Position numbers and translations under genes: made by a program
Shown: one piece after another, positions 239-19,851 of the stretch
Position numbering within the stretch: the stretch's first letter is position 1
Layout: every line of letters begins with the position of its first letter
Notes under the pieces: model-generated
The model's database searches: none
What the model was told of the DNA's origin: nothing
The model's input: the letters and a program-made list of their open reading frames with translations, nothing else
Origin: a virus
Virus record (IMG/VR): IMGVR_UViG_3300025769_010767
Coordinates: 1-27,153 of that record
Length of the DNA: 27,153 nt
Direction: 5' to 3' (one strand)

Positions 239-305
239 CAAATATAAAACGCCTTACCACTACAAACTCAATCATTTCGATAAACTAAACCAAATCTTCG
301 ATGAA
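239..305 (-). promoter_or_regulatory. Boxed promoter for the left-edge gene
   Basis: The -7 element TATATTTG is at 246-239. Two boxes lie upstream: TTTATCGAA (284-276) and TTCATCGAA (305-297), 21 bp apart, with the nearer one 29 bp from the -7 element. There is no convincing -33 TTG at the usual spacing. The distal box sits just downstream of the terminator ending the preceding operon. Confidence 0.75.
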
Positions 306-307
306 TT

Positions 308-333
308 AAAAAGCCCTGTCGTTAAACAGGGCT
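308..333 (-). terminator. Rho-independent terminator of the sugar-dehydrogenase cassette
   Basis: An 8-bp perfect stem AGCCCTGT/ACAGGGCT (333-326 with 319-312) has a 6-base loop and is followed on the minus strand by a T run. It closes the operon 1630-365. Confidence 0.85.
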
Positions 334-364
334 ACATCAAAACAAACAAAGTAAAATGGAAATA

Positions 365-586
365 CTATGGAAGAGCAATATTAACTAATTCTGTTAATTT
401 ATAGTTTGCACAATACGTTTTATCTTGCACAACAAAGCCAAAGCATTCATTATTCTCAGCGTAGACTTTAAGTATATCCGATTTAATGTTATGCTTTACA
501 CATATGGCATCCAACCTGTCAAATAGCTCATTTGTTGTAATGTAAAAAAAAGGTAGCTGTTTTAGCGGATAGATTTCTTTGCTCAT
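365..586 (-). CDS. Hypothetical 73-aa protein, last gene of the sugar-dehydrogenase cassette
   Basis: A 73-residue protein of mixed composition with no signal peptide or membrane segment and no family I recognise. Its ATG overlaps the stop of the upstream dehydrogenase gene (ATGA), which implies translational coupling and a linked role. A strong terminator follows. It may be an accessory protein of the sugar cassette, but nothing in the sequence shows a function. Confidence 0.75.
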   Translation of the reverse strand: MSKEIYPLKQLPFFYITTNELFDRLDAICVKHNIKSDILKVYAENNECFGFVVQDKTYCANYKLTELVNIALP

Positions 587-1398
587 TTATTTATGCTTTC
601 TATTAGTTCAATACTCTTTTTTGCTTCTGTAATATCAAAGCCCTTGCCTTCTAATATTCGCTCATAGCTTAGGTTGTGTAAGTCTGTAAAGCCTTTAGCA
701 AGGTCGAAGTTATTGCCGTTAATTATAAGCTCTCTAAGTGGCTCTTTCGTGTATGTAAATGATGTGCTTAATTGATAGAATACTACTGCATCTTGCATTA
801 ATAGTTTACCTTGTTTTATATCCTTTTTTTTATAATTTTTGTATTCTAACACATCTCCAAATAAATCAATAAGCAGGTCGAATAGATGAATACCAATGTT
901 AAACAATAAGCCCCCGCTTTTATTTACATCACCCTTCCAACTTTTAGCGTACCAATCACCACGCGGAGTTAAATATGTTAAATCAACTATGTTACTTTGG
1001 TTATCCATAGCCTTTTTAATTTCTTCTATCATCGGGTGAAGCCTAAGCTGCAAAATACAATTAATGCTAACCCCTTTTAAGTCGGCTAAGGCTTTTAGTT
1101 GGTCTATTTGGTGCGAGCGCAAAACCACAGGCTTCTCACATATAACATTACAACCTTTAGAAATAGCTTCTTTTATGTGGTCGTAGTGTAGAAAGTTAGG
1201 AGTGCAAATACTTACGTAGTCGGGCTTAGTTGTTAGCTTAGTAGAGTATTTACAGTTAGGAAAATATCGGTCTATTATCCCTACTGAATCGTTTACATCT
1301 ACTATCTCTATTAACTCGCAGCCGTTAGCCTTAATAGCTTCAATGTGTTTAGGGGCGATGTAACCACCTGCCCCTATTAATGCGAATGTTTTACTCAT
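583..1398 (-). CDS. Gfo/Idh/MocA oxidoreductase, WbpB/WlbA-like sugar-nucleotide dehydrogenase
   Basis: A 271-residue NAD(P)-dependent dehydrogenase. The Rossmann glycine-rich loop GAGGYIAP is at residues 9-16, the family motif CEKP at 87-90, QLRLHP at 117-122, a GDWYAKSWKGD stretch around 147-157, and the catalytic-His region NIGIHLFD at 167-174. The last features, together with DVNDSVGIID near 34-43, resemble WbpB/WlbA enzymes, which oxidise C3 of UDP-GlcNAc-uronate on the way to diacetamido uronic acids of O-antigen. Those enzymes are about 310-320 residues, so this copy is shorter, but the catalytic Lys and His are kept. It lies 10 bases after a 73-aa gene and overlaps the next by ATGA, inside a promoter-to-terminator cassette in the phage head region. 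A role in altering host surface sugar, or a virion glycan, is inference; substrate is unproven. Confidence 0.88.
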   Translation of the reverse strand: MSKTFALIGAGGYIAPKHIEAIKANGCELIEIVDVNDSVGIIDRYFPNCKYSTKLTTKPDYVSICTPNFLHYDHIKEAISKGCNVICEKPVVLRSHQIDQLKALADLKGVSINCILQLRLHPMIEEIKKAMDNQSNIVDLTYLTPRGDWYAKSWKGDVNKSGGLLFNIGIHLFDLLIDLFGDVLEYKNYKKKDIKQGKLLMQDAVVFYQLSTSFTYTKEPLRELIINGNNFDLAKGFTDLHNLSYERILEGKGFDITEAKKSIELIESINK

Positions 1399-1408
1399 AT
1401 TGGTAATT

Positions 1409-1630
1409 CTACTTAAATTTAGTTAGCCCACAAGTAACAGCACTCCAACACAAATCAATAAAAGACTGTCTATAATCGTGTATCTCAAGTGTTTCAGCCA
1501 AAATGCATAGTTTAGAAGTAAATTTTCTTCCTTGCATTTTTTCATTTTCATGCGTTGAAGTAAGGTAAGTTATTTCATTCATGTAAAACTTTGCTGTTTC
1601 TGCGATGTCGTTAAGTTGTGCTTTTTTCAT
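1409..1630 (-). CDS. Hypothetical 73-aa protein, first gene of the sugar-dehydrogenase cassette
   Basis: The frame is open further upstream, but the start used here is the ATG at 1630-1628 (MKKAQLNDIAETAKF). It follows a boxed promoter and a standard CAAACAAACAAAAAG leader, and an upstream start would run through that promoter. The product is small and soluble with two Cys near the C-terminus and no recognised domain. It is cotranscribed with the dehydrogenase. Confidence 0.78.
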   Translation of the reverse strand: MKKAQLNDIAETAKFYMNEITYLTSTHENEKMQGRKFTSKLCILAETLEIHDYRQSFIDLCWSAVTCGLTKFK

Positions 1631-1651
1631 CTTTTTGTTTGTTTGATAAAT

Positions 1652-1717
1652 CAAAAGTAAAACAACATTCCACACCTTAGCAATGATTTCGATGAACTGC
1701 TTAATTGCTTCGATTAA
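1652..1717 (-). promoter_or_regulatory. Boxed promoter of the sugar-dehydrogenase cassette
   Basis: The -7 element TACTTTTG is at 1659-1652. Boxes are TTCATCGAA (1696-1688) and TTAATCGAA (1717-1709), 21 bp apart, with 28 bp to the -7 element. The distal box covers the stop codon of the head morphogenesis gene. Confidence 0.78.
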
Positions 1718-2544
1718 TAGTTCCTTTCGTCCTTTGTTTGATAGATAAGGGTGCATCTGCAGTTGCAAACATTCTTTGCACTCCCCCAAGTATCGCCCGG
1801 GTATCTCATTTGCTCACCATCTACGATAAAAGCCCCTTGCATAGGTGCTACTTGACCGCCTACGCCTTCAGGCTCGTTCCTGTGCGCTGTTCTTGTTCTA
1901 CCATCAATAAAAGATAACCAAACCTTATCCAACTCTTCGCCTAAACTTTCAGCCCCTATAAAGCTTGCATAGTTAGCCATTGTAAGGCTTTCTGTACGTG
2001 CTATTAGTTCAGGTCTAAAGGCTGTCATTATTCGCCATTCTTGGTTAACACTTGCGTTTATAGCTGCCTTTATTTGTGGTATGCTTTGCCCTTCGTTTAC
2101 CCCTGTTGTAACAGCTTCATTAATCGCTTTTCTTGCTACTTCTTGGCTTGTATCTGTTACGCTTATTATTCGGCTTGCAACTTCGTTATCTACAAATTCA
2201 GACATTTGCAACCAATACAAATCATCTTCGTTTACTATTTCTTTTAGATTGAATCTATAAGGGCTATTTTTTTGTAACGCTCTTATAGTGCCGTTGTAAT
2301 ATTTCTGCCCTTGCTTAGTATAAAGTTCTTTGTATAGCTTTCGTGTATCGCTTGTATTGATGTACTTTGGTATCTCGTCAAGTATGCTTATAGGTGAAGA
2401 GCTTTCTTTAACGGCATTTAATAGGCTTCGCTTTTGTTGTGCGAATAGGCTTTTTATTGACCTTACCCATGTGCGCTCATCTCTTTGGCGTTTATCGTCA
2501 AACTCTCTACCGCTTAACTCTTGCTTTGTTTTTAGGTTGGGCAT
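1714..2544 (-). CDS. Phage head morphogenesis protein (Mu gpF / SPP1 gp7-like)
   Basis: A 276-residue minor head protein. The C-terminal part carries the hallmarks of the phage Mu F-like family: an ARTES motif, then KVWLSFIDGRTRTAHR, then a YPGD segment and the terminal NCRC pair. The N-terminal half is helical and charged. Members sit at or near the portal and help head assembly or DNA injection, which fits its place soon after the portal gene. The ATG is only 4 bases downstream of a -7 box (TAACTTTG), so the mRNA may be leaderless or nearly so. An 82-aa accessory gene separates it from the portal gene. Confidence 0.88.
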   Translation of the reverse strand: MPNLKTKQELSGREFDDKRQRDERTWVRSIKSLFAQQKRSLLNAVKESSSPISILDEIPKYINTSDTRKLYKELYTKQGQKYYNGTIRALQKNSPYRFNLKEIVNEDDLYWLQMSEFVDNEVASRIISVTDTSQEVARKAINEAVTTGVNEGQSIPQIKAAINASVNQEWRIMTAFRPELIARTESLTMANYASFIGAESLGEELDKVWLSFIDGRTRTAHRNEPEGVGGQVAPMQGAFIVDGEQMRYPGDTWGSAKNVCNCRCTLIYQTKDERNY

Positions 2545-2548
2545 GATG

Positions 2549-2556
2549 CAAAGTTA
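2549..2556 (-). promoter_or_regulatory. Unboxed promoter -7 element for the head morphogenesis gene
   Basis: TAACTTTG matches TAnnTTTG and lies directly after the terminator T-run. The gene's ATG begins 4 bases downstream, so the transcript should start at or beside the start codon. No TTCATCGAA box is present. Confidence 0.55.
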
Positions 2557-2558
2557 AT

Positions 2559-2590
2559 TAAAAAAGCCCCACCTGTTATAGTAGGGGCTT
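2559..2590 (-). terminator. Rho-independent terminator after the 82-aa gene
   Basis: Stem AAGCCCC (2590-2584) pairs with GGGGCTT (2570-2564) around a 13-base loop, followed by a run of six or seven Ts on the minus strand. Confidence 0.85.
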
Positions 2591-2615
2591 AGGTAGCTAT
2601 GAAGAAAAAAGTTTA

Positions 2616-2864
2616 TTATCTTAAACTATCCATTTTTGATGAATAACTCATTAAGCCTAAATTTACTTTCTTAGTTTCTTTTCTATCCTTAAATTCAACT
2701 TCGTAGCCCCAATCTTCATACTGTTTAATTGTTTTTTTATACCCGCTTGTACCTTTAGTTTCTGCTTTGCCCCAATCTAATGTACCATCTTCTTTGTATT
2801 GTACAATTTTCATTAGTGTATGTCCAAAATTTCCTGCGAATGTGTAAATGTAAACTTTTTTCAT
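2616..2864 (-). CDS. Hypothetical 82-aa protein (single-gene accessory cassette)
   Basis: The start is the ATG at 2864-2862 (MKKVYIYTFAGNFGHTL), because the longer open frame upstream would cross the boxed promoter. The protein is small, Lys-rich and soluble, with no recognised domain. It forms a one-gene unit, with its own boxed promoter upstream and a terminator downstream, wedged between the portal and head morphogenesis genes. This is the typical layout of a phage moron. Function unknown. Confidence 0.75.
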   Translation of the reverse strand: MKKVYIYTFAGNFGHTLMKIVQYKEDGTLDWGKAETKGTSGYKKTIKQYEDWGYEVEFKDRKETKKVNLGLMSYSSKMDSLR

Positions 2865-2893
2865 CTTTTTGTTTTTTTGTTTGTTTGATGATT

Positions 2894-2959
2894 CAAATGT
2901 ATTACACCAAACCAAACTACTAAACTATTTTAGACGAACTACGCCAACGCTTCGATGAA
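2894..2959 (-). promoter_or_regulatory. Boxed promoter of the 82-aa accessory gene
   Basis: The -7 element TACATTTG is at 2901-2894. The distal box TTCATCGAA (2959-2951) is perfect; the proximal one, TTCGTCTAA (2938-2930), is degenerate. Spacing is 21 bp between boxes and 28 bp to the -7 element. Confidence 0.7.
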
Positions 2960-2963
2960 TTGC

Positions 2964-4265
2964 TTAATAATCAGGATAACGCTTATTAATATCTTCACTA
3001 TCAAACCCATCATCAAAAGGCAATAGGTTACTCGGTATAGTGTACTTTGGAAATGTTTCGTCTACATCTACTTCCATTATTGCCTGCTTTTCTTGATTAG
3101 ACAACCAATAAGCCTTACTAAGCCATTCAACTTGCTTTGCCCTATCTACTTGCAATACTTGAATGTTTGATGTGTCAGCTTTAAAGTATAGGGTATTGTC
3201 ATAAGGTTGAACTACTCGCCTGTTTATCTCGGCTATGTACTTATTAAGTGCAGGTAGTATCGCGTCTGTATAAGCACTCTTTTTAGCTTCGTTTACGTTG
3301 TTATAAGTGCTGCTTTTGTCATCGTTAAATAGTTGGCTCGGTAAGTTGTACAACATACAAATATCATTACGGCTTAAATCGTGTTGCTCTATTAGCTGCA
3401 TACTTCGAGCATCTAAGCCTAATTGCTGCCATTTTAACGCCATGTTAGAGTAGGCTATTTTACCTGCGTTATTAGAACCCATTACTTTTTGCCTAATCTT
3501 ATTTTCAAGGGTTCGCGCTTGTTGCTCTGTTAGGTTGCCCATGTTCTCAGGGCTTAATATCCCTAATGCGCCCATGTTTTGATTTTGGTTTGTAATAGCG
3601 TTTAGGTTTGCATTACTCGCATTAAGTGCCATTAAACCCGCTTTAAGTGGGCTTTGTCCGTATAAAGTTTCACCATTAACCCACTCATAATTAGGTTGCT
3701 TTACGTGTATTATTTCATCGGGGCTATACTTAGCCACAACCGTTGCAGGGCTAAGGGTTAAGTCATAGCTTTTTATTGGCTCAGTTGCACCGCTTCCGCT
3801 TTGAATCTCTATGTATTGAGAAGGTAGCACATAAAGCTCCTTAGTTAGCCCTTTGTTTAATCCATTCTCTAAAGTTACTTTGTAATTGTAAGTGTTACCT
3901 GTTATTAAATAATAGCCAATGCTTTGCTCTACGAAGTCTGTCCAATCCTGTAAATTGTTAGGCTGTTCTAACAATTCTAATAAAGGGCTATCAGTTACCT
4001 TTTCTTCATTGCCATCTTTATCATATCTGCACAACTTCCACGGAATATTAGCAGCCTTAGAACTAATATATTTTACGCAAGAATACACAAAGATGTTTTT
4101 ATTATAGCCATTTTTTACATAACTCTCATAGCTATCAGGTAATGGCACAGGGCTATTTTTAGCTCTCCATTGGTAAAGGGTATCATAAAACTGCTTATCT
4201 AAAGCAACGTCATTTTTGATGTTTAACCCTAATAAATTTAGAGCTTGTTTTTGTAGCCAATTCAT
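2964..4265 (-). CDS. Phage portal protein (HK97/SPP1-type)
   Basis: A 433-residue protein of the usual length for HK97-type portals. The N-terminal region with NIFVYSCVKYISSKAANIPW resembles the start of the phage portal domain, where a conserved block precedes the wing. Further on come ETLYGQSPLKAGL, a Gln/Asn-rich segment with NMGALGILSP, and a LYNLPSQLFND motif near residue 310, all seen in this family. Portals form the dodecameric ring through which DNA is packaged by TerL. The ATG overlaps the TerL stop by four bases (ATGA), giving the canonical TerS-TerL-portal order. Confidence 0.92.
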   Translation of the reverse strand: MNWLQKQALNLLGLNIKNDVALDKQFYDTLYQWRAKNSPVPLPDSYESYVKNGYNKNIFVYSCVKYISSKAANIPWKLCRYDKDGNEEKVTDSPLLELLEQPNNLQDWTDFVEQSIGYYLITGNTYNYKVTLENGLNKGLTKELYVLPSQYIEIQSGSGATEPIKSYDLTLSPATVVAKYSPDEIIHVKQPNYEWVNGETLYGQSPLKAGLMALNASNANLNAITNQNQNMGALGILSPENMGNLTEQQARTLENKIRQKVMGSNNAGKIAYSNMALKWQQLGLDARSMQLIEQHDLSRNDICMLYNLPSQLFNDDKSSTYNNVNEAKKSAYTDAILPALNKYIAEINRRVVQPYDNTLYFKADTSNIQVLQVDRAKQVEWLSKAYWLSNQEKQAIMEVDVDETFPKYTIPSNLLPFDDGFDSEDINKRYPDY

Positions 4266-5479
4266 ATTATAAAAAAGTCATTATTATCTAAAAAATGCTC
4301 TACTAATCCTGTTAGTGCATCGGGTGCATCATCATGTTTATTTTTGCCTTCACGAGTGTACGTGCGTAAAGCTAACATAAATTCATTGTTCAAATCTTTA
4401 CAAAAATAACAATTTAACGACACGTTTGAAGAGTTGGTTACTATACGAGTATTCTTATTTGCGCTTTGGTGATAAGTGGTTATATTAGTTTTACGCCAAT
4501 TAACATCGGTTAAAACACGCTGCACACTACGCGCAAAGCCACGCCCACCGTTATTACTTTCTATAATAGCCCTGTTTACTTTGTTGTTTATTATTAATTG
4601 AGCTACTAAACTTTCTGTTATTTCTTGTGGCTCTTTAGTGTAAACCACATCAGTAATATAAAGGCTTGTATTAGTTTTAACCGCTGTTATTGCACAAAGA
4701 TAATCTTCGCCTGTGTCGGCTGTATCGCAATACATAACCGCTTCGCCTTGTGGTAAGTCTTGATACTCTTGCAGGTTACTGTATAACCGACCTGTAAGCG
4801 TGTCTAACCAACTCCCTAACATTACATGAACATAGAGTTGATAATCGTGCGCCTTCATTTGTTCAGCACGTTTAATAAAGCTTTCGTGTAGGTTAGTTTT
4901 GTTATCTAAATATGTTGAATGGATATAGGTTACATCGCCTTTAACACCGTTGAAGTTTTCATCTACATTAGCATCTAAAAAGAACCGCTTGTAAATCCAA
5001 TGTTCACGAAGCGCAGGGTTAAGTATTAGAATAACCCTATTTTGTATGTTTTTTTCTCTAACGCTTAAATCAATCTTATCAAATACTTCGGGGCTGTCTA
5101 ACTCTTCAGCTTCATCTAATACCCAAGTGGTAACCCCTTGCAAAGATTTAAGGTTAGCTGTCTGATTTCCGCTACTTGTTTTGATTCCACTAAATATAAT
5201 CTCAGAACCGCTTGCAATATTTTTTATAGAGTTATTAGTAACATCAAAAACATTATTATGCCCTTGCACATCTATTTTCTCTACAAACTCAGGTATAATA
5301 GATTTACTTGCTGCCGTTAATGTATAACGTGTAAATAACACTTTGTGACCTTGCTGAAATAATAGGTTCTCAATAAAAGTACCTACTGCATAAGACTTGC
5401 CCGAACCCCTACCACCGGTTACAATAAAGTAACGCGTATCATTACGCCAAAGCGGCTGAAACTTTTTATTAAGCTTCAT
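4262..5479 (-). CDS. terL: Terminase large subunit
   Basis: A 405-residue packaging ATPase-nuclease. Walker A GGRGSGKS is at residues 22-29 and Walker B VLDEAEE at 120-126. The C-terminal RNase H-like nuclease shows its three acidic positions in CDTADTGED (from 251), ESNNGG (from 307) and HDDAPDAL (382-389). Length and motifs fit the PBSX/Terminase_3 group. The protein cleaves concatemers and pumps DNA into the procapsid through the portal. It overlaps the small-subunit gene by 11 bases and the portal gene by four. Confidence 0.95.
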   Translation of the reverse strand: MKLNKKFQPLWRNDTRYFIVTGGRGSGKSYAVGTFIENLLFQQGHKVLFTRYTLTAASKSIIPEFVEKIDVQGHNNVFDVTNNSIKNIASGSEIIFSGIKTSSGNQTANLKSLQGVTTWVLDEAEELDSPEVFDKIDLSVREKNIQNRVILILNPALREHWIYKRFFLDANVDENFNGVKGDVTYIHSTYLDNKTNLHESFIKRAEQMKAHDYQLYVHVMLGSWLDTLTGRLYSNLQEYQDLPQGEAVMYCDTADTGEDYLCAITAVKTNTSLYITDVVYTKEPQEITESLVAQLIINNKVNRAIIESNNGGRGFARSVQRVLTDVNWRKTNITTYHQSANKNTRIVTNSSNVSLNCYFCKDLNNEFMLALRTYTREGKNKHDDAPDALTGLVEHFLDNNDFFII

Positions 5480-5741: not shown

Positions 5742-5774
5742 TATTTAGAATTAATATAGATTAATTAATTAATT

Positions 5775-5782: not shown

Positions 5783-5789
5783 ACAAAAT

Positions 5790-5825: not shown

Positions 5826-5856
5826 ACAAACAAAACATATGATGAAAACGTACTAA

Positions 5857-6542: not shown

Positions 6543-6608
6543 TAAATATATAACCACTTACCAAAGTACAACACTTATTTCGATGAACTAAACCTTTGTT
6601 TGGATGAA
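6543..6608 (-). promoter_or_regulatory. Boxed promoter of the 100-aa gene
   Basis: The -7 element TATATTTA (6550-6543) has one change from consensus. Boxes are TTCATCGAA (6587-6579) and TTCATCCAA (6608-6600), 21 bp apart, 28 bp from the -7 element. The distal box lies within the 3' codons of the upstream 56-aa frame. Confidence 0.75.
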
Positions 6609-7587: not shown

Positions 7588-8196
7588 TTAAAATAAACTA
7601 CCTTGTTTAATTACATTTGATTTAATTATACCTTGAGCTCTTTCTAATATATGTAATCCTAAATTAGCGTTTACCATATTCCTTTCCGTTAATGGTTTAC
7701 TATGTGCGTGTTTATGCGTTCCTGCGTATTGCTTCATCATTGTGCCAACTTCACCTTTTGGCTGTTCTATTGGTGGAATTTTAAAATTTGCCCACAAATA
7801 ATGCCTACCTATTACTGCTGTTGGATGTATAAAATGCTCATAATATGCTTTTACATTTTCAACGCAAAATTTACCCTTGCAAAATGTTTTTAAAAATATT
7901 ATCTCTTGCCATAATTCCATTTTAGGGTATCTGCTTTCCGTAATATAGTTAATAAAATAGTTTGCTTTGCTGTGGGTTTGGCAGGGCGGAGACGACCACA
8001 CAAACCCATCTTCAAACTCTGTATAATGTTTTAAAAGGTACTCGTGAGCATCCGCTACTATTACTTTGTCGTTAGGATAAAGCTCTTGATATTTTTCTGC
8101 TATTTTCTCATCAAATTCAACTGCTGTTATTTCGTGTTTATCGCCCCACAATTTACGGTTTCCACCTATTCCAGCGTATAAATTAAGTATCTTCAT
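7588..8196 (-). CDS. Small DNA (cytosine-5) methyltransferase
   Basis: A 202-residue protein. Motif I NLYAGIGGNR (residues 5-14) binds S-adenosylmethionine, the catalytic PPCQ with Cys72 is at 70-73, and motif VI ENV is at 113-115. Typical C5 methyltransferases exceed 300 residues; this one lacks a visible large target-recognition domain and the usual motif IX-X block, as in other compact phage enzymes. Likely role: methylation of phage DNA against restriction. It sits behind a boxed but weak promoter (8213-8279), and may also be reached by readthrough from 8645. Confidence 0.82.
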   Translation of the reverse strand: MKILNLYAGIGGNRKLWGDKHEITAVEFDEKIAEKYQELYPNDKVIVADAHEYLLKHYTEFEDGFVWSSPPCQTHSKANYFINYITESRYPKMELWQEIIFLKTFCKGKFCVENVKAYYEHFIHPTAVIGRHYLWANFKIPPIEQPKGEVGTMMKQYAGTHKHAHSKPLTERNMVNANLGLHILERAQGIIKSNVIKQGSLF

Positions 8197-8212
8197 TTTA
8201 ATTTTTTAAATT

Positions 8213-8279
8213 CAATGTTTTTGTTAATTGTTATACAGCTTTATCTTATTTCGATAAACTACCTTAAACCTTCGATGAA
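8213..8279 (-). promoter_or_regulatory. Degenerate boxed promoter before the methyltransferase
   Basis: Boxes TTTATCGAA (8258-8250) and TTCATCGAA (8279-8271) are intact and 21 bp apart, but the expected -7 position reads AAACATTG (8220-8213), two changes from TAnnTTTG. The box part is one copy of the 69-bp repeat. Confidence 0.5.
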
Positions 8280-8295
8280 TTGCAGTATTTCTTTA
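8227..8295. repeat. 69-bp direct repeat, copy 1
   Basis: Differs from copy 2 (8684-8752) at one base only (position 8239). It carries both promoter boxes plus the last codons of the 50-aa HTH gene. Confidence 0.9.
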
Positions 8296-8411
8296 TTTGG
8301 TTGAGTAACCGATTTAACAGAATCAGCACTATTACCTGTTATATTAGCAATGTTGGAGTTAGTCAATCCTAACCTTGACTTCATTGCTTTAAATCTATTG
8401 TTCCAATTCAT
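8259..8411 (-). CDS. Small HTH-like protein (50 aa)
   Basis: A 50-codon frame from ATG 8411-8409 to TAG 8261-8259, beginning MNWNNRFKAMKSRLGLTNSN. The pattern SRLGLTNSNIANITG followed by DSVKSVT resembles the helix-turn-helix of XRE/Cro-type repressors, reduced to one short helical domain. It lies 3 bases after the 76-aa gene under the boxed promoter at 8671-8736. The last ten codons come from the 69-bp repeat that contains the promoter boxes. It is a candidate regulator; a role in binding those boxes is speculation. Confidence 0.65.
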   Translation of the reverse strand: MNWNNRFKAMKSRLGLTNSNIANITGNSADSVKSVTQPNKEILQFIEGLR

Positions 8412-8645: not shown

Positions 8646-8670
8646 TTTATTGTGTTTTTGTTTGATGATG

Positions 8671-8736
8671 TAAAAGTAAAACGATTGTTATACAGTTTTA
8701 TCTTATTTCGATAAACTACCTTAAACCTTCGATGAA
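8671..8736 (-). promoter_or_regulatory. Boxed promoter of the 76-aa/HTH genes
   Basis: The -7 element TACTTTTA is at 8678-8671. Boxes are TTTATCGAA (8715-8707) and TTCATCGAA (8736-8728), 21 bp apart, 28 bp from the -7 element. The boxes belong to copy 2 of the 69-bp repeat and overlap the end of the 49-aa gene. Confidence 0.75.
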
Positions 8737-8752
8737 TTGCAGTATTTCTTTA
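8684..8752. repeat. 69-bp direct repeat, copy 2
   Basis: 68 of 69 bases equal copy 1 at 8227-8295. The shared DNA encodes the C-termini of two different proteins in two different frames, so the repeat was duplicated and kept as DNA rather than as protein. Confidence 0.9.
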
Positions 8753-11325: not shown

Positions 11326-11392
11326 CAAAAATAAAATTCAAATGTATAACGGTGGTGACGTTCATGTATCAAAGATACTATTTTTCGATGAA
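11326..11392 (-). promoter_or_regulatory. Putative single-box promoter of the initiator/primase operon
   Basis: TATTTTTG (11333-11326) with one TTCATCGAA at 11392-11384 in the distal-box register (50 bp from the -7 element, as at the left-edge promoter). The proximal box is missing. A second -7-like TACATTTG is at 11346-11339. The transcript would start right before the hairpin. Confidence 0.45.
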
Positions 11393-11617
11393 TTGCTCTT
11401 TACTTTCGGTTAATTCTTCCAAAGTGTATTGAGCAACTTTTACATCTTCGTTAAATTGGTTTTTTACATTTATCATTTCGGTTTTAATGTTTAAACCATC
11501 TTCACGCAATAAGTGAACAACCGCTGCAAGTCGGTAAATGCCTAAATGTTTCCACGCTTCTAAAGGTTGAATTGGGTATTCTTCCAACCATGCTTTTAAT
11601 CTTTCTTTTTGTGTCAT
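11378..11617 (-). CDS. Small winged HTH protein
   Basis: A 79-residue protein with PLEAWKHLGIYRLAAVVHLLRE (residues about 18-39), the helix-turn-helix signature of small phage proteins in which a GI.RLA turn is followed by DLR.DG and a Tyr-x-Leu ending (here VAQYTLEEL). Such proteins bind DNA, often in replication or regulation operons. It is the last gene of the SNF2-methyltransferase operon, one base after the previous gene. The final codons QFIE are encoded by a promoter box. Confidence 0.7.
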   Translation of the reverse strand: MTQKERLKAWLEEYPIQPLEAWKHLGIYRLAAVVHLLREDGLNIKTEMINVKNQFNEDVKVAQYTLEELTESKEQFIEK

Positions 11618-11618: not shown

Positions 11619-11918
11619 TTACTTAGTATTAAATTGATTTTGATAAAAGTTAAAAAATTCCCTTAGCTGTTTTTCACTATTGCCGTGTGCTATTTTCAGC
11701 ACTCCACGCTCTTTCTCTAAGTACCAATAATATTGCATACCACCGTTTTTTAAAGCCTTTAGCTTAATCTTTCCGCTGTGTATTTGCTTATACTCAAATT
11801 GGTATTTAGTCTTTAAATTAACGCAATGGTTTTGTAGTATTCGTCTTAGCAACTCGTGCATTCTTAATTCTTTTAATCTTTGGTTTAAAAGTCGTATTTC
11901 TTTGGTTAAGTCGGTCAT
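11619..11918 (-). CDS. Hypothetical 99-aa basic protein
   Basis: A basic, Leu- and Lys-rich protein with an N-terminal predicted helix (LTKEIRLLNQRLKELRMHEL) and a C-terminal part with GGMQYYWYLEKERG. No family recognised. It overlaps the XRE gene by four bases (ATGA) and is cotranscribed with it. Confidence 0.7.
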   Translation of the reverse strand: MTDLTKEIRLLNQRLKELRMHELLRRILQNHCVNLKTKYQFEYKQIHSGKIKLKALKNGGMQYYWYLEKERGVLKIAHGNSEKQLREFFNFYQNQFNTK

Positions 11919-12160
11919 ACTTCTTTTGGTTTAAATTCAAACGGCATCTGTAAACATTGACACCACTTTAAAAACTCGCTAATTCTCGGCTCTGAGTGAC
12001 CACTTTCCCAACGTGAAAGGGTGGCTGTATTAACTCCTATATCGTCCGCTACATCAAACTGAGAATAGCCCATTTGATAGCGTTTAATAATCATTCTTTC
12101 AATAATGCTTTCGCCTTTGCTTGTTTGCATTATTCGCGCTATATTGGTGGTTACTTGCAT
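11915..12160 (-). CDS. XRE-family HTH transcriptional regulator
   Basis: An 81-residue single-domain protein. The helix-turn-helix spans MGYSQFDVADDIGVNTATLSRWESG (residues about 30-55), with the classical Q-x3-A-x3-G-x4-x-S-x-WE pattern. It has no visible dimerisation or sensor domain. Its ATG overlaps the stop of the SNF2-methyltransferase gene (TAATG). It is the best-supported regulator in the window and a candidate for binding the TTCATCGAA boxes or its own operon's promoter; that link is inference. Confidence 0.85.
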   Translation of the reverse strand: MQVTTNIARIMQTSKGESIIERMIIKRYQMGYSQFDVADDIGVNTATLSRWESGHSEPRISEFLKWCQCLQMPFEFKPKEV

Positions 12161-14328: not shown

Positions 14329-14353
14329 TATTTTAATCTGTTTTTGATTTGTT

Positions 14354-14419
14354 CAAAAGTAATTGCATAAAAAAGCCCTAAACATTTATTTCGATGAATA
14401 GGGCTATTGCTTCGATGAA
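14354..14419 (-). promoter_or_regulatory. Boxed promoter of the SNF2-methyltransferase operon
   Basis: The -7 element TACTTTTG is at 14361-14354. Boxes TTCATCGAA at 14398-14390 and 14419-14411 are both perfect, 21 bp apart, 28 bp from the -7 element. The proximal box is in the terminator loop of the preceding operon. Confidence 0.82.
14369..14405 (-). terminator. Terminator of the recombination operon, with operator box in its loop
   Basis: Stem AGCCCTA (14405-14399) pairs with TAGGGCT (14380-14374), followed by a run of Ts. The 18-base loop contains the proximal TTCATCGAA box of the next promoter. Confidence 0.75.
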
Positions 14420-14707
14420 TTAAAATGGTAAAGAATCACCTTCAACTTGTGGAGCTTGCGTTGTGCCTTGTTGCTCTGCGTTGTTAATGTTGCCATTATT
14501 CCAAACTACTTTCCCATTCCCTAAGTATTGGCGATTAACTTTTGCATCGCGCTCTTCTTTGGTTTGTGCATGGTAGCAGCTTGCATTTTGCCCCCATTGG
14601 TTTGTTTGGTCTTCAATACCTAATGTAAGGTTCAACCATTTACCATCTTTAATTTTGCTTTTGTCAATCTTTGTTACGTCGATTGAAAACGATACTACTG
14701 CGCTCAT
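14420..14707 (-). CDS. Single-stranded DNA-binding-like protein
   Basis: A 95-residue protein with a beta-rich N-terminal half (VSFSIDVTKIDKSK, then WLNLTLGIEDQTNQWGQNAS) compatible with a reduced OB fold. An Asn/Gln-rich linker follows and the C-terminus is EGDSLPF, resembling the acidic DDDIPF tip by which SSB proteins recruit partners. It ends the operon that holds the candidate annealing protein, consistent with a recombination and replication role. The OB fold itself is inferred, not certain. Confidence 0.65.
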   Translation of the reverse strand: MSAVVSFSIDVTKIDKSKIKDGKWLNLTLGIEDQTNQWGQNASCYHAQTKEERDAKVNRQYLGNGKVVWNNGNINNAEQQGTTQAPQVEGDSLPF

Positions 14708-14708
14708 T

Positions 14709-15568: not shown

Positions 15569-15707
15569 ACTTCTTTTTGGTGAAATTGTTAAAATAAAAT
15601 TCCATGTTTTCGTAAGTTTCAAAGCCCCTTACCCTGCCATCGGGGTAAATTATTTTAAAAGGAAATAGGTTTCGCTTATGGTTAAAGCTTAAAATATCTA
15701 ACTTCAT
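15549..15707 (-). CDS. Short hypothetical protein (52 aa)
   Basis: A 52-codon frame starts at ATG 15707-15705, overlapping the stop of the upstream 128-aa gene as ATGA, and ends at TAA 15551-15549. The product is basic and aromatic (MKLDILSFNHKRNLFPFKII at the start) with a YPDGRVRGFETYENMEFYF segment. No domain recognised, but the overlap and composition argue for a real gene. Confidence 0.7.
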   Translation of the reverse strand: MKLDILSFNHKRNLFPFKIIYPDGRVRGFETYENMEFYFNNFTKKKYGKIKL

Positions 15708-16090
15708 TTTATTGCGTTTAAATTGTCAATCTCTTTGCTCATTGTTGCAAGTATATGAGTGCAAGAATTAATTACTTCTTTTAAACCCCTATAAGTTGCT
15801 TCGTTTAGTGCTTCATTTGCTCTTAACTCTCCTATCTTACTTTCTGCTATACTTTCACTCTTTGCAGCACTCTCACCGCTTTCAATCGCTTTTAATTTCT
15901 CTTTGTGAAATGATACTTTGCGCTCTTGCTCAGTAGAATAAAAACTTTTGCCAAAAGCACCACATTTCAAACTTAAATTAAAAACCGCTATGGATAGTTC
16001 CTTTTTTAAGTTGAGTAACTTAGGTAAGTTTATTGGCTCACTTGTATCTAATTGCTCATAAGCTTTTACTATGTCTTTAACTTCTGCCAT
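15704..16090 (-). CDS. Hypothetical 128-aa helical protein
   Basis: A helical protein with Ala/Ser/Glu-rich middle (ESGESAAKSESIAESKIGEL) and Cys at about 43 and 110. Similar small helical proteins lie beside phage annealing proteins; I cannot assign a family. It overlaps the upstream gene by 14 bases and the downstream one by ATGA, so it is part of the recombination operon. Confidence 0.7.
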   Translation of the reverse strand: MAEVKDIVKAYEQLDTSEPINLPKLLNLKKELSIAVFNLSLKCGAFGKSFYSTEQERKVSFHKEKLKAIESGESAAKSESIAESKIGELRANEALNEATYRGLKEVINSCTHILATMSKEIDNLNAIK

Positions 16091-16361
16091 ATTTCTTATT
16101 GTATTCTTTGTTGCTAAAACTGCCCCTTTCGTGTATTGGGTCTATTTGGCTATCTAATAGCTCTTGTTTAATTTTATGCAGTTGGTTTATGTCTGCATCT
16201 GCTATTTGATTAAAAAGCTTAATAACCCTTATTTGACCAAACTTAGATATTTGACTATTATCAACAAGAGAATAGCAATAATCTCTTAGGTTTTCGGTTT
16301 GCTCTTGCTCACCGTATTGCGCTTCTTCTTGTTCTTCACTCCACCAACTTTCAAACTCCAT
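16077..16361 (-). CDS. Hypothetical 94-aa acidic protein
   Basis: The start is the ATG at 16361-16359 (MEFESWWSEEQEEAQYGE), one base after the stop of the annealing-protein gene; the frame is open farther upstream. The N-terminus is strongly acidic and Gln-rich, the remainder helical (LFNQIADADINQLHKIKQEL). It may be a partner of the annealing protein, but no motif shows this. Confidence 0.7.
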   Translation of the reverse strand: MEFESWWSEEQEEAQYGEQEQTENLRDYCYSLVDNSQISKFGQIRVIKLFNQIADADINQLHKIKQELLDSQIDPIHERGSFSNKEYNKKYGRS

Positions 16362-16362
16362 C

Positions 16363-16776
16363 TTATTGCTGTTTAAAATCGTCTGATTCATCTTCTGAAT
16401 ATAAATAACCATGTGCGCCAATTGCAATTAATACGGCTCGTGCTTTTGCCCTTTTTTCAGCCATTTCTAAATAGTATTTAGTAGGGTTTCTTACGTTTGA
16501 CTTTTCAGCACTACCAAAAGAGCTTGCTAATTCTTCGCCATCTTTATTTGCTAATGTGCATTTAACAGCGCAATACTCAGGGTCAACAGATACTACATCA
16601 AAAGAGTATTTAAAGTGTTCTGCGGCTGTTATTTTCTGAATACCTGTTTTTGTAACTATTGGCGTTATCTTTATTTCACCTGTTTTTTTATCTCGGTTTT
16701 GAAGCTTAAAAATATCTTCATTGCCTATAAGAGAATAACGCTCGTATATCTCTTTTATGAATTGCATTTTATCCAT
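16363..16776 (-). CDS. Candidate single-strand annealing protein (ERF/Rad52-like)
   Basis: A 137-residue protein. The first half has TPIVTKTGIQKITAAEHF, the second a motif like YYLEMAEKRAKARAVL followed by IGAHGYLYSEDESDDF. The AEKRAKxRxVL...G..G..YSEDE block is typical of phage proteins annotated as ERF or Rad52-type recombination proteins, which pair complementary strands during phage recombination and replication. Position in an operon ending in an SSB-like gene supports this. It is shorter than full-length ERF (about 200), so the call is tentative. It starts one base after the previous stop. Confidence 0.55.
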   Translation of the reverse strand: MDKMQFIKEIYERYSLIGNEDIFKLQNRDKKTGEIKITPIVTKTGIQKITAAEHFKYSFDVVSVDPEYCAVKCTLANKDGEELASSFGSAEKSNVRNPTKYYLEMAEKRAKARAVLIAIGAHGYLYSEDESDDFKQQ

Positions 16777-16777
16777 C

Positions 16778-17086
16778 TTACTTCATTATTAATTTGTCCG
16801 CAAAAGTTTTGATAGTGTTCTTAGCGTTTTTGTACGCTTCCATAAACTCGGCTTTGTTGCTTTTTTCCCATGCTTTTACAGCCATATATTTACCATTTAC
16901 CCACGTACTATCTCTTTGAGCATTACACCAATTTAAACGTTCCTGAGTTGTTTCATCTTCATAAACATTATAACTAATGTCATAATCACGCATTGAAGCG
17001 TAAATATCAAGCTCAACAGAGCCTTTATCGTGTGATTGAATACAAATAAATTGTTTTCTGTTTCTGTGTTTTAAATAAATTTCCAT
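16778..17086 (-). CDS. Hypothetical 102-aa protein, first gene of the recombination operon
   Basis: A protein beginning MEIYLKHRNRKQFICIQSHD with a Trp-rich middle (LNWCNAQRDSTWVNGKY) and Lys-rich end. No recognised family. It is read from its own boxed promoter and starts a run of ten overlapping or abutting genes down to 14420. Confidence 0.75.
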   Translation of the reverse strand: MEIYLKHRNRKQFICIQSHDKGSVELDIYASMRDYDISYNVYEDETTQERLNWCNAQRDSTWVNGKYMAVKAWEKSNKAEFMEAYKNAKNTIKTFADKLIMK

Positions 17087-17105
17087 TTTGTTTGATTTAA
17101 TGATT

Positions 17106-17171
17106 CAAAAATAATAGTAAAGCCTACCCACCTTGATTTATTTCGATGAGTAGGCTGTTTTATTCGATTAA
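17106..17171 (-). promoter_or_regulatory. Boxed promoter of the recombination/SSB operon
   Basis: The -7 element TATTTTTG is at 17113-17106. Boxes are CTCATCGAA (17150-17142) and TTAATCGAA (17171-17163), 21 bp apart, 28 bp from the -7 element. The distal box overlaps the stop codon of the 64-aa gene. Confidence 0.75.
17121..17156 (-). terminator. Hairpin/terminator after the 64-aa gene, box in its loop
   Basis: Stem AGCCTAC (17156-17150) pairs with GTAGGCT (17127-17121); only a short, interrupted T run follows, so termination may be weak. The loop carries most of the proximal promoter box. Confidence 0.6.
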
Positions 17172-17362
17172 TTGTTATTTAAAAACTCTTGCAAGTATTT
17201 AGGATTCCAATTTTCTTCCGTGTCAATCTCAGGAAATGGTTTAGCTTTTGCTTCCTTCATTGCTCTTTCGTGTGGAAAGTACGGACTCCAATAGTCGTAA
17301 ACTTCTCTTTGCTCAGGTGTTAAGGCTTCACGCTCTTCTCTTTGTTGCTTGTAACTTTTCAT
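17168..17362 (-). CDS. Hypothetical 64-aa protein
   Basis: A highly charged protein (MKSYKQQREEREALTPEQRE) with aromatic VYDYWSPYFPHERAM in the middle. Soluble, no domain known to me. It follows the 75-aa gene by 24 bases in one transcription unit. Function unknown. Confidence 0.7.
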   Translation of the reverse strand: MKSYKQQREEREALTPEQREVYDYWSPYFPHERAMKEAKAKPFPEIDTEENWNPKYLQEFLNNN

Positions 17363-17386
17363 CTTGTTTGTTTTTGCTATTGTAAA

Positions 17387-17614
17387 TTAATTTATTACTA
17401 CGTTTTTTATCTTAGATATCTTATCTAACTCACCACAATCTAAAGTACCTTCAATCTCTAAAAAATATTTACCATCTTTAAAACCAATACTTTCTTCGGT
17501 TTCGTATCTCTCTGTAAAAATAGAATCAGCATTAAGTATTTTAAAGATACGAGCATAAGCACCTTTATACTTTTTATCTTCTTTTACGTTTAATATAGTG
17601 ATGTTTGTATTCAT
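17387..17614 (-). CDS. Hypothetical 75-aa protein
   Basis: The start is the ATG at 17614-17612 (MNTNITILNVKEDKKYKGAY), directly after the leader with CAAACAAAC. The protein is soluble and mixed alpha/beta in look, ending LDCGELDKISKIKNVVIN; no family recognised. First gene of a small unit with its own boxed promoter. Confidence 0.74.
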   Translation of the reverse strand: MNTNITILNVKEDKKYKGAYARIFKILNADSIFTERYETEESIGFKDGKYFLEIEGTLDCGELDKISKIKNVVIN

Positions 17615-17635
17615 TTTTTTGTTTGTTTGATGACT

Positions 17636-17701
17636 CAAATATAAAAAGGCGCATCAATCGACACGCCTTTTTTAGATGAACTGCAATATACTTTCGACTA
17701 A
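17636..17701 (-). promoter_or_regulatory. Boxed promoter of the 75-aa/64-aa genes
   Basis: The -7 element TATATTTG is at 17643-17636. Boxes are TTCATCTAA (17680-17672) and TTAGTCGAA (17701-17693), each with changes, 21 bp apart, 28 bp from the -7 element. A terminator hairpin fills the space between box and -7 element. Confidence 0.68.
17643..17673 (-). terminator. Bidirectional terminator after the metallophosphoesterase operon
   Basis: Arms AAAAAAGGCG (from 17673) and CGCCTTTTT (ending 17643) pair around a 12-base loop, with a T run on both strands. It sits between the promoter boxes and the -7 box of the next unit. Confidence 0.78.
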
Positions 17702-17826
17702 TTGTCTATTTTACTCGCTAAAAATAAACACAATGAGTAAAATGTTTCATAAATTCGGCTTAAAATGGCTAAAGGTATTGTAACCAAAAAAACGGTAACA
17801 AGCAATAAGATGTAAACTACTTTCAT
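17698..17826 (-). CDS. Short membrane peptide (42 aa)
   Basis: A frame of 42 codons starts at ATG 17826-17824, overlapping the stop of the preceding 50-aa gene as ATGA, and ends at TAG 17700-17698. One hydrophobic segment (KVVYILLLVTVFLVTIPLAI) spans residues 2-21 and looks like a membrane helix, followed by a second, weaker one. Function unknown; possibly a small membrane protein of an exclusion or lysis type. Confidence 0.6.
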   Translation of the reverse strand: MKVVYILLLVTVFLVTIPLAILSRIYETFYSLCLFLASKIDN

Positions 17827-17975
17827 ATTTTAACCGTTTTCAGTACCCTTACTTCTGCGCCTAAGTTGTTTTGTAAGGCTCTCCTTTTGCTTTCATACTC
17901 AGCATAAAACCTATTTAAAGCAGGTATTAAGAATTGTCTTACTTTGTTGTTTACTTCAATATCTACTTGCCACAT
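17823..17975 (-). CDS. Short hypothetical protein (50 aa)
   Basis: A 50-codon frame starts at ATG 17975-17973 and ends at TGA 17825-17823. It begins MWQVDIEVNNKVRQFLIPAL and is basic and helical. It lies one base after the stop of the 75-aa gene and overlaps the next by ATGA. No family recognised; genomic packing supports it as a gene. Confidence 0.62.
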   Translation of the reverse strand: MWQVDIEVNNKVRQFLIPALNRFYAEYESKRRALQNNLGAEVRVLKTVKI

Positions 17976-17976
17976 A

Positions 17977-18204
17977 CTAATCAATCAACTCGTTAATGTC
18001 TAATTTCAATTCGTTGTGTTGCTCTAATAGCTCTTGCACTAACTCAATCACTTCTAAATCAACTTCTTTTTTTTCTAACTCTCGCCAAATGTAGGTTTGA
18101 TATTGCCAAACTGTCAAGGCTAAATCAGTTGCATGAATTGCCCTTAACATTTCTTTGTTATCGTAGCCTTCTACATCTGTATCAAATTCAATGGTTATTT
18201 TCAT
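17977..18204 (-). CDS. Hypothetical 75-aa acidic helical protein
   Basis: An acidic protein (MKITIEFDTDVEGYDNKEML) with repeated Glu/Leu helices (ELVQELLEQHNELKLDINEL) suggesting a coiled coil. No known domain. ATGA overlap with the upstream membrane-protein gene. Confidence 0.7.
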   Translation of the reverse strand: MKITIEFDTDVEGYDNKEMLRAIHATDLALTVWQYQTYIWRELEKKEVDLEVIELVQELLEQHNELKLDINELID

Positions 18205-18578
18205 TTTAATTTACTTTTAAAAGTTACATAAGTAAAGTTAAACACTACTAATCCCATTGCGTAAGATAAGCCTGTTAACCACATATTATAATCAAAAGCA
18301 TATAAGCATATAAATAATAGTGCTGAGTGCCTGAGAAGCCCTGCAAAGTGCCACCAATCGCTCAAGCTAACCAACAAAGAAGCACTTAAAAAAAACTTCT
18401 CTTTGTACTTAGCCCCTACTAATTCATGATAGCTCCTGTAAATAGGGTGTAAGCTCTTAATATCTATAAACGGTTGCTTATACTTATTGCGCCAATTAAA
18501 ACCCTTACCGGTGCTTAGAATCGCATCTTGCAAACCTTTAGCGGCAAAGTAGCTAAATACCAAAATCGTTATTATCAT
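18201..18578 (-). CDS. Hypothetical multi-helix membrane protein (125 aa)
   Basis: An N-terminal hydrophobic helix (MIITILVFSYFAAKG) and at least two further hydrophobic segments near residues 75-95 (HSALLFICLYAFDYNMW) and 100-117 (SYAMGLVVFNFTYVTF) suggest an integral membrane protein of about three helices. No family recognised. It overlaps the upstream gene by 26 bases. Possible roles such as exclusion or lysis are guesses. Confidence 0.65.
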   Translation of the reverse strand: MIITILVFSYFAAKGLQDAILSTGKGFNWRNKYKQPFIDIKSLHPIYRSYHELVGAKYKEKFFLSASLLVSLSDWWHFAGLLRHSALLFICLYAFDYNMWLTGLSYAMGLVVFNFTYVTFKSKLK

Positions 18579-18735
18579 TATCGTCTTTTTTTGTTATGTA
18601 AAGGTAGAAGTGAAACCACAATGTAACCATGCTGTACCCTGCAATTATGACAAATCTTGGTGAATCTGTTTGAATGAAAGCTATGGTTAAAAACACATAG
18701 GCTAAAAATGTTGTTATGTAAGGTAAGTATCTCAT
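18553..18735 (-). CDS. Small membrane protein (60 aa)
   Basis: The start is the ATG at 18735-18733 (MRYLPYITTFLAYVFL), one base after the stop of the metallophosphoesterase gene. Two hydrophobic segments (residues about 4-20 and 27-45) and an Asp/Asn-rich C-terminal tail. Function unknown. Confidence 0.65.
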   Translation of the reverse strand: MRYLPYITTFLAYVFLTIAFIQTDSPRFVIIAGYSMVTLWFHFYLYITKKDDNDNNDFGI

Positions 18736-18736
18736 T

Positions 18737-19762
18737 TTATAAACATTTACCATTAATTATTCTAAAGTTATCGACTTGAAATGTACCATCTTCAAAGCTC
18801 TCAACCGTTGCAGCTCCGTGATTCCATTTGATGTAAGCCAAAGGTGAATAGTCAGGTGTTAACGTACATAAACAACCTGTACTAAAAACGCCTATTTTAT
18901 CCCCTTTACCTGTGCCTTGATGGTGTGTACTTGTTTGGTGAAAATGCCCTAACATAGTACTGCAAAGCATTTTGTTAAACATACCTTTTGCAGGGTTTAC
19001 AGGTGAATAAGTGCCGTATATTTCGTGACCGTGCATGATAGTTAATTTGCCCAACCTTGCTATTCTTGAATCGCTTATGTAGGTTATGTTGTTTGTTGCC
19101 AATTCTAAAACATTTTCTAAATCAAATGTATTTAAGTGGCTTAACTTATCGGCATTTTTCCAAAGGTGTAAACGCCATCTATTCTCATGATTGCCAAACT
19201 TGTAATAAACTTTATCAAATAAAGTATTAACGTAATTTAAAAATTGCTTTGTTTGGTTGATTTCGGTTTCTATTGTGAAAGTTTTAATAAGTCGCGGGTC
19301 AGTAGTAAATCGAGTTGTCCAATAGTTATCCATAACATCGCCGTTTAGATACAACTCGGTGCAACCTTGTTCAATGCCATAATCTAAAGCACTTTGCAGG
19401 GCTAGTTCATCGTGAAATGGTAGATGTATATCAGATAAAACTAAGTATTTTTTACCTGTTGGCAAAATAAAATCTTTTTTATCCTGCGCTAAACTATCAG
19501 GCAATTTGTTTGATTTTTGCCCGTGTTCAATAGTACTTTTTAAACTATAACCGCTTTTTACTTGCTCCCGTAATGTATCACCTTGCGCTCCTGTGTATTG
19601 CCTTATTAACGCTCTTACATCTTCGACATCTTTGAATAAATCAGGGTAGTCTTTAAAAATTAACCTTGCTAACCCTTTCTTTGAAACTTCCCCTTCGCGT
19701 AATTGCTCTTCATAATCTTTAACAAATTGCAATACAATTTCGCCTTTTTGTGACTTCGGCAT
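18737..19762 (-). CDS. Calcineurin-like metallophosphoesterase
   Basis: A 341-residue enzyme. Metal-binding motifs in order: SDIHLPFHD (110-118, D111/H113), NGDVMD (140-145), FGNHENR (189-195), TIMHGHE (241-247) and LGHFHQT (271-277). These are the five blocks of the calcineurin-like phosphoesterase fold, which hydrolyses phosphate esters with two metal ions. The N-terminal 95 residues form a separate charged, possibly HTH-like region (KKGLARLIFKDYPDLFKDVED). The substrate (nucleotide, DNA end or other) cannot be read from sequence. It is the first gene of an operon of small membrane proteins and has a weak boxed promoter. Confidence 0.88.
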   Translation of the reverse strand: MPKSQKGEIVLQFVKDYEEQLREGEVSKKGLARLIFKDYPDLFKDVEDVRALIRQYTGAQGDTLREQVKSGYSLKSTIEHGQKSNKLPDSLAQDKKDFILPTGKKYLVLSDIHLPFHDELALQSALDYGIEQGCTELYLNGDVMDNYWTTRFTTDPRLIKTFTIETEINQTKQFLNYVNTLFDKVYYKFGNHENRWRLHLWKNADKLSHLNTFDLENVLELATNNITYISDSRIARLGKLTIMHGHEIYGTYSPVNPAKGMFNKMLCSTMLGHFHQTSTHHQGTGKGDKIGVFSTGCLCTLTPDYSPLAYIKWNHGAATVESFEDGTFQVDNFRIINGKCL

Positions 19763-19784
19763 AGGTATTTATTTATAGTTAGTT

Positions 19785-19851
19785 CAAAATAAACTAAATG
19801 TGATACTATAAAAATCAATAATTCGACAAATAGCCGCATATTAAAGATTAA
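19785..19851 (-). promoter_or_regulatory. Weak boxed promoter of the metallophosphoesterase operon
   Basis: The -7 position reads TTATTTTG (19792-19785). Boxes TTTGTCGAA (19830-19822) and TTAATCTTT (19851-19843) are degenerate but in register (21 bp apart; 29 bp to the -7 element). The distal one covers the stop of the 71-aa gene. Confidence 0.5.

Follow-up and report, generated by a model that had tools for sequence, protein, structure and literature searches.

At least eight promoters of the phage analysed here carry the paired tags of Bacteroidota LytS/LytTR genes, which suggests that a host signalling protein would switch them on. Judged from the DNA sequence, the promoters of its accessory, recombination, modification and replication genes are probably activated by a LytTR response regulator, most likely one belonging to the host. 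The paired boxes are predicted to be operators for a regulator of this family: two LytTR subunits would sit on one face of the DNA, two helical turns apart and centred near -45 and -66, and would bring RNA polymerase to sigma-A promoters of the Bacteroidota type, with a -7 element (TAnnTTTG) and no -33. The regulator would be the output of a host LytS-type sensor kinase/LytTR system, and in many Bacteroidota such a system may drive its own operon from a promoter of the same layout. We infer three steps of this proposal, namely LytTR binding at the phage sites, promoter activation as its effect, and a host gene as the source of the protein.

The window (the whole stretch of DNA that was analysed, 27,153 nt) contains nine tandem TTCATCGAA-like pairs, all on the minus strand and with a period of exactly 21 bp (Table 1). 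Pair scores range from 34 to 43 bits, against a best score of 17 in 20 first-order Markov shuffles, and the pair-matrix scan of the window gave no match above 20 bits on the plus strand; the scoring matrix was derived from the same nine window sites, and the independent test therefore lies in the relatives and the host genomes. Single boxes with at most one mismatch occur 22 times in the window (4.3 +/- 2.0 expected). Exact doubling of TTCATCGAA is seen once, the remaining pairs differing by one to three changes, and the base after the second box is A at all nine sites. Across the window and three near-complete relatives, 23 of 23 box pairs lying no more than 120 bp apart have the 21-bp period, which bears out two claims of an earlier, sequence-only reading: that the spacing is invariant and that two proteins would sit on one DNA face. 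The same reading saw TTC-N3-GAA as an inverted repeat fitting an HTH dimer, a view that we abandon: with a conserved [A/G]TC at its centre and every copy in one orientation, the box is an asymmetric direct repeat. The nine window pairs have the form expected of LytTR operators, namely two 9-bp direct repeats in one orientation, and all 23 pairs have the expected spacer of about 12 bp (11-13).

Table 1. Box pairs, their -7 elements and candidate regulator genes in the window
Feature	Positions	Strand	-7 element (positions, minus strand)	Second box to -7 (nt)	Context	Same, orthologous or related site in
Tandem pair TTCATCGAA-N12-TTTATCGAA	276..305	-	TATATTTG (239..246)	29		L133, L134, L043, L152 (orthologous)
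Tandem pair	1688..1717	-	TACTTTTG (1652..1659)	28	Overlaps stop codon of Mu-F-like gene	L137, L043, L054, L056, L145, L152
Tandem pair, second box TTCGTCTAA	2930..2959	-	TACATTTG (2894..2901)	28		L133, L134, L137, L056
Tandem pair	6579..6608	-	TATATTTA (6543..6550)	28	Overlaps 3' end of upstream gene	L137, L036, L017, L134, L141
Tandem pair	8250..8279	-			Copy of 8707-8736; -7 not recognisable at 28 nt	
Tandem pair	8707..8736	-	TACTTTTA (8671..8678)	28		L017, L134, L141 (related)
Degenerate pair	11384..11413	-			In 3' end of winged-helix gene; no -7 at the proper distance	
Perfect tandem pair	14390..14419	-	TACTTTTG (14354..14361)	28	Upstream of helicase-methyltransferase, XRE and winged-helix genes; second box in loop of terminator-like hairpin	L132, L015
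Tandem pair	17142..17171	-	TATTTTTG (17106..17113)	28	Second box in hairpin loop	L132, L136, L015
Tandem pair	17672..17701	-	TATATTTG (17636..17643)	28	Terminator-like hairpin between second box and -7	L132, L136
Winged-helix protein	11378-11617				Candidate phage-encoded regulator	
XRE protein, 81 aa	11915-12160				Candidate phage-encoded regulator	

Eight of the pairs stand above a TAnnTTT[G/A] -7 element on the minus strand, and seven sites have 28 nt between the second box and its TA, site 276/297 having 29, placing the repeats immediately upstream of the core promoter. Every complete site continues from the -7 to a start codon 19-29 nt below. A positioned -33 TTG is absent from the phage and host members of this promoter class, in line with the earlier view that the boxes occupy activator-like positions in place of a -33. 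That they lie on accessory, recombination, modification and replication genes and are absent from late structural promoters is likewise borne out. The first count of ten promoters with a common N28/29 distance has to be reduced to nine pairs, eight of them with a -7. The proposed site at 19822/19843 (TTAATCTTT...TTTGTCGAA) is missed even at a 10-bit threshold, and no TAnnTTTG lies at the required distance from it. The 8250 pair, whose boxes are good, lacks a -7 at 28 nt; it duplicates 8707 almost exactly (56 + 12 identical bases) and has lost the promoter half. At 11384, read earlier as a single box, a good box is accompanied by a second, weak one (26 bits), in the 3' end of a coding gene and with no -7 at 28 nt; this pair is probably outside the regulon.

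About 20 related contigs share the layout, among them a relative whose primase is 74% identical, and at orthologous sites the boxes are 95% identical against 79% for the 28-nt spacer. Viral matches that include the -7 all come from the present phage lineage; bare exact matches to the pattern in other viral contigs lack a properly placed -7 and resemble chance matches in coding sequence. At 75 loci of distant terminase relatives (44-63% identity), no convincing 21-bp repeat, the same or analogous, was found at this geometry, and a cluster at 31-33 nt is mostly antisense within the terminase gene. A near DNA search among annotated phages gave no match.

The relatives also bear on a reading, compatible with LytTR control and scarcely credible as the main explanation, in which the sites are chiefly mobile terminator-promoter linkers at mosaic joints and the boxes hitch-hike. 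Homology between relatives repeatedly ends at a promoter or leader, the genes directly below the promoters are often unique, terminator-like hairpins overlap three sites, and 8250 and 8707 are a duplication. Against this, the boxes are the best conserved columns, their spacing is fixed despite differing spacer sequences, and the same boxes head cellular operons. An RNA hairpin as the common signal was rejected, only three sites folding better than shuffles (z about -2). T4-type phages have been reported to carry promoter-stem-loop cassettes ("mobile regulatory cassettes") at gene joints; the present sites resemble these in combining a terminator-like hairpin and a promoter at joints of a mosaic phage genome, and differ from them in having a conserved tandem operator, with hairpins at some sites only.

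A scan of GTDB genomes with TTNRTCGAA-N12-TTNRTCGAA-N28-TANNTTTR returned 87 stretches with the complete layout (rough chance estimate below 1), nearly all with titles naming Bacteroidota or neighbouring phyla. A LytS-type His_kinase gene lies downstream on the same strand at 22 of the 80 loci checked, and 14 of these also have a LytTR response regulator, as expected of an autoregulatory element; chance linkage to LytTR is expected about 0.7 times, given that eight of these genomes hold 117 LytTR domains in 34 Mb. The gene order is box, kinase, LytTR in Chitinophagaceae and box, TonB receptor, kinase, LytTR in Bacteroidales, and the box-linked LytTR proteins fall into three separate groups, so the linkage is not one inherited locus. 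In Chitinophagaceae the geometry emerges even where it is not imposed: with spacers of 6-18 bp allowed, 12 bp is the spacer in 25 of 39 box pairs and the others are scattered over that range, and the -7 lies at 28 nt in 13 of 36 pairs, any other distance occurring at most three times. The base after the second box, also not imposed, is A in 78% of host sites. At 58 of the 80 loci the DNA stretch examined has no LytS/LytTR operon below the site, several of these sites preceding TonB-receptor or other genes. In Flavobacteriaceae the box pair barely exceeds the control and there is no peak at 28 nt, so that the case would be weaker if the phage host belonged to this family.

That the phage encodes the protein that binds the boxes (an XRE, winged-helix or unrecognised protein), the likeness to LytTR operators being mimicry or shared origin, is an unlikely alternative. 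The XRE and winged-helix genes, with Pfam HTH_3 and HTH_39 matches, belong to the operon below the perfect site 14390-14419, and L138, L141, L132 and L015 retain them; box-bearing L143 has a divergent XRE protein (30%) at the same place. XRE proteins are typically palindrome binders. The phage boxes are instead asymmetric direct repeats with a conserved [A/G]TC centre in a single orientation, and bacterial LytS/LytTR operons are headed by the same layout, both spacers included. The XRE protein, one of two regulators suggested earlier, is 98-100% conserved in near relatives, and its fall to 30% identity in L143 leaves the boxes nearly unchanged, which makes it an improbable regulator. The other, the HTH protein at 8259-8411, is rejected because it is missing from L141, L134 and L017, relatives that keep the boxes.

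A phage-encoded LytTR protein was also sought. The LytTR domain (PF04397) has no match at E<=1 in 16 phage records, namely the window and 15 relatives, among them record G003, which covers a segment missing from the window; the phage thus appears to lack a regulator copy of its own. Since no LytTR gene is recognisable in these records, the regulator is probably the host's. The phage is presumably a virus of Bacteroidota bacteria, with no close relative of its terminase among 395 Bacteroidia genomes; the operator class of its sites matches Bacteroidota genomes as a group, and these genomes hold 4-24 LytTR domains each, so that every one offers several candidates for the relevant regulator.

A host LytTR regulator could in principle act in the opposite sense, by repressing the phage genes until the signal changes or by being titrated on decoy sites. 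Nine sites in 27 kb, against one or two in each bacterial genome, make titration arithmetically possible. We consider both variants distinctly improbable: the boxes end 28 nt before the -7 without overlapping it, promoters without a -33 suit dependence on an activator, and decoys would not need the -7 and start codon found at all complete sites. Published LytTR operators upstream of a -35 also activate (PMC6193735). Most transcription of the replication, recombination, modification and accessory genes might depend on the host LytS/LytTR system as a phage-wide regulon, and infection might be gated by the sensor's signal, an extension that we put forward tentatively.

If LytTR control is correct, the non-late programme of a tailed phage is written in the operator language of a host LytTR system, which would reach well past the few PhoB-controlled cyanophage genes and might offer a route to the host through a search for species whose LytTR regulator has the fitting specificity. 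The element of free-living Bacteroidota, in both gene orders, provides an operator that can be tested for a large family of regulators in the phylum. A search of open-licence PMC papers found no description of a phage LytTR regulon or of the bacterial promoter element. The earlier impression that no such phage system is described holds in part only: the geometry is that of published LytTR operators (PMC6193735), and phage use of a host two-component system is known from PhoBR in cyanophages (PMC10976474).

LytTR regulators recognise a pair of 9-bp direct repeats, mostly 12 bp apart, that lies directly before the -35, and they activate the operons that encode them (PMC6193735); PMC4227749 describes the LytTR domain as mainly beta-strand and non-HTH, and AgrA as a direct-repeat binder. 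The HdrR/BrsR systems resemble the phage and bacterial sites in repeats, 12-bp spacer and core-promoter position, and in an element often placed on the regulator's own operon (PMC6193735). Unlike these and AgrA-type systems, the present sites serve many promoters of a phage with no recognisable LytTR gene, at a Bacteroidota -7 without a -33, and with a single stringent sequence, TTNRTCGAA. Zeng and Chisholm (2012), as cited in PMC10976474, reported host PhoBR control of cyanophage genes. For S-PM2d, PhoB binding was shown by gel shift and the predicted PhoB boxes were only partly confirmed (PMC10976474), which by analogy is a warning for all such operator predictions. The two cases are alike in phage promoters with host two-component operators, here predicted from sequence, and in a replication gene (DNA polymerase) among the targets. 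PhoB belongs to a different regulator family and has a different box. In S-PM2d some genes only are concerned, with variable site positions (PMC10976474), whereas most of the non-late promoters of the present phage follow a single rigid layout.

Most genes of this 27,153-base viral record lie on its minus strand, and the window holds a putative terminase and portal (named from sequence and context), a Mu-F-like protein, a primase-helicase, a DnaD-like loader and a helicase-methyltransferase fusion. A 9-bp box (consensus TTCATCGAA) forms nine tandem pairs on the minus strand, all with a 12-bp spacer. The pairs score 34-43 bits and shuffled windows (n=20) never exceed 17, on a matrix that is partly circular, being derived from the nine scored sites; the independent tests in relatives and bacteria therefore weigh more. 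The sequence-only reading had claimed a shared box-box-(-7) layout serving an activator regulon. This layout stands for eight of the nine pairs, which carry TAnnTTT[G/A] 28 nt below the boxes (29 nt in one). At 8250 the boxes are present but no -7 element lies at 28 nt; the pair at 11384 falls inside a gene end with no -7 element at the right distance, and the pair at 19822 is unsupported by the matrix scan of the window. The base after the second box, which was not imposed, is A at 9/9 phage sites.

Relatives were gathered from IMG/VR by the exact pattern, terminase, XRE protein and primase. The layout recurs in about 20 contigs of this lineage: the boxes stand 12 bp apart, and the -7 element follows at 28 nt at nearly all sites (29 nt for the 276/297 type). 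In the related contig L143, whose primase is 74% identical, five sites remain, each at 28 nt, and a slightly different box, TTCGTCGAA, is favoured. Across orthologous sites, identity is 95% in the boxes, 89% in the -7 element, and 79% in both the 28-nt spacer and the leader. In more distant terminase relatives (44-63% identity) the element is absent, and nothing with the same geometry makes a convincing analogue.

The box pairs also occupy a characteristic genomic position: six of nine run into the end of the upstream gene or come within 4 nt of it, and the start codon follows the -7 element by 19-29 nt at every complete site. Homology among relatives often breaks off where the promoter or leader lies, with different genes immediately downstream, so the box promoters are also joints of the mosaic. 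A mosaic-linker view of the elements is compatible with LytTR control and explains the duplicated, truncated 8250 copy, which matches the 8707 element over 56 + 12 bases, has lost its -7 region, and is separated from the 8707 copy by two small genes. Terminator-like hairpins overlap three elements; at two, the loop holds the second box, which may place the end of one unit at the start of the next promoter. Candidate -7 elements without boxes lie upstream of structural, packaging or lysis-region genes, and those at 2556 and 7547 are so near ATG that their transcripts may be nearly leaderless. L143 has TATCTTTGATACATGATG, near-identical to TATCTTTGATACATGA, above its own DnaD-like gene.

Positions of elements, candidate promoters and genes in the window
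Feature	Position	Strand	Remark
8250 element	8210-8290	minus	truncated copy
8707 element	8668-8748	minus	
Hairpins over elements	14365-14420, 17118-17172, 17640-17705		z about -2
Box-less -7 candidate	2556	minus	TAACTTTGCATCATG
Box-less -7 candidate	7547	minus	TAACTTTGAACTATG
Box-less -7 candidates	5782, 21768, 27141		
Box-less promoter candidate	11377	minus	TATCTTTGATACATGA; above DnaD-like gene
GFO/IDH/MocA-type oxidoreductase gene	583-1398		in a box-controlled unit
Short C5 DNA methylase gene	7588-8196		in a box-controlled unit
Winged-helix gene	11378-11617		
XRE gene	11915-12160		

The pattern TTNRTCGAA-N12-TTNRTCGAA-N28-TANNTTTR was scanned across about 85,000 species genomes (GTDB) and returned 87 stretches, against an estimate from base composition of fewer than one by chance. 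By title, almost all are Bacteroidota; a few are Ignavibacteria or Calditrichaeota and one is Ligilactobacillus. One further match is in a MAG labelled Beijerinckiaceae, where the gene below the site is of a Bacteroidota kinase type. In the Chitinophagaceae loci tested with Pfam, a LytS-type His_kinase (PF06580) and a Response_reg + LytTR protein (PF00072 + PF04397) lie directly below the site. A kinase lies downstream on the same strand in 22 of 80 bacterial loci, joined by a LytTR regulator in 14, at 1-4.6 kb below the promoter; the chance expectation is about 0.7 (117 LytTR domains in eight genomes, 34 Mb). Chitinophagaceae loci run box, kinase, LytTR and Bacteroidales loci box, TonB receptor, kinase, LytTR; the box-linked LytTR domains fall into three separate groups in a tree. 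The Bacteroidales operons (L155, L168, L183, L184, L187 and similar loci), in which a TonB-dependent receptor precedes the LytS-type kinase, suggest an outer-membrane uptake system with positive feedback. Element-bearing bacterial genomes hold one or two sites, versus nine in 27 kb of phage. In a Chitinophagaceae MAG (L215/L295), about 550 bp carry six box pairs before short unknown genes with similar leaders.

In Chitinophagaceae the geometry recurs when constraints are relaxed. With the -7 element left out of the pattern, 200 genomes of this family gave 55 box-pair matches versus about 7 for the reversed pattern; 13 of 36 pairs read had the -7 element at 28 nt, and any other distance occurred at most three times. 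With the spacer free at 6-18 bp (100 genomes), 25 of 39 pairs had exactly 12 bp. The base after the second box, again not imposed, is A in 78% of bacterial sites. In Flavobacteriaceae the pair hardly exceeds the control, without any 28-nt peak; four loci there (L250, L252, L255, L263), which may represent another promoter family, have TAnnTTTA at 17-18 nt and resemble one another downstream.

The phage promoters are thus most likely built on a host-type LytTR-activated promoter, for which we infer binding, the direction of regulation and host identity. A host-encoded LytTR regulator would bind the phage boxes and would activate the promoters. No LytTR domain was found in the phage records even at E=1, including G003, a related record covering a segment absent from the window. 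The phage does encode an XRE and a winged-helix protein, and either could bind instead. Against this, the box lacks the palindromic form of an HTH site and in bacteria is tied to LytTR operons. The position of the boxes suits repression or titration less well. TAnnTTTG is a documented Bacteroidota -7 element, and no -33 motif was found in Flavobacterium johnsoniae (PMC7366714); the lack of a positioned -33 TTG in phage and bacterial members alike is therefore, by itself, weak evidence for an activator.

Among open-licence papers, we found none describing LytTR operators in phage promoters or a TTNRTCGAA-type paired operator in Bacteroidota; phage-encoded LytTR proteins are mentioned for Pseudomonas phages (PMC11945551). 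In described LytTR-family operators, 9-bp direct repeats stand in pairs, 12 bp apart, immediately above the -35 element, and the regulators commonly activate their own operons (PMC6193735); AgrA likewise binds direct repeats (PMC4227749). The phage elements resemble these operators in repeat length, spacer and position just above the core promoter. For PhoBR, exploitation of a host two-component system by phages is already described (PMC10976474, citing Zeng and Chisholm 2012), and a host LytTR regulator acting at the present promoters would be a further example.
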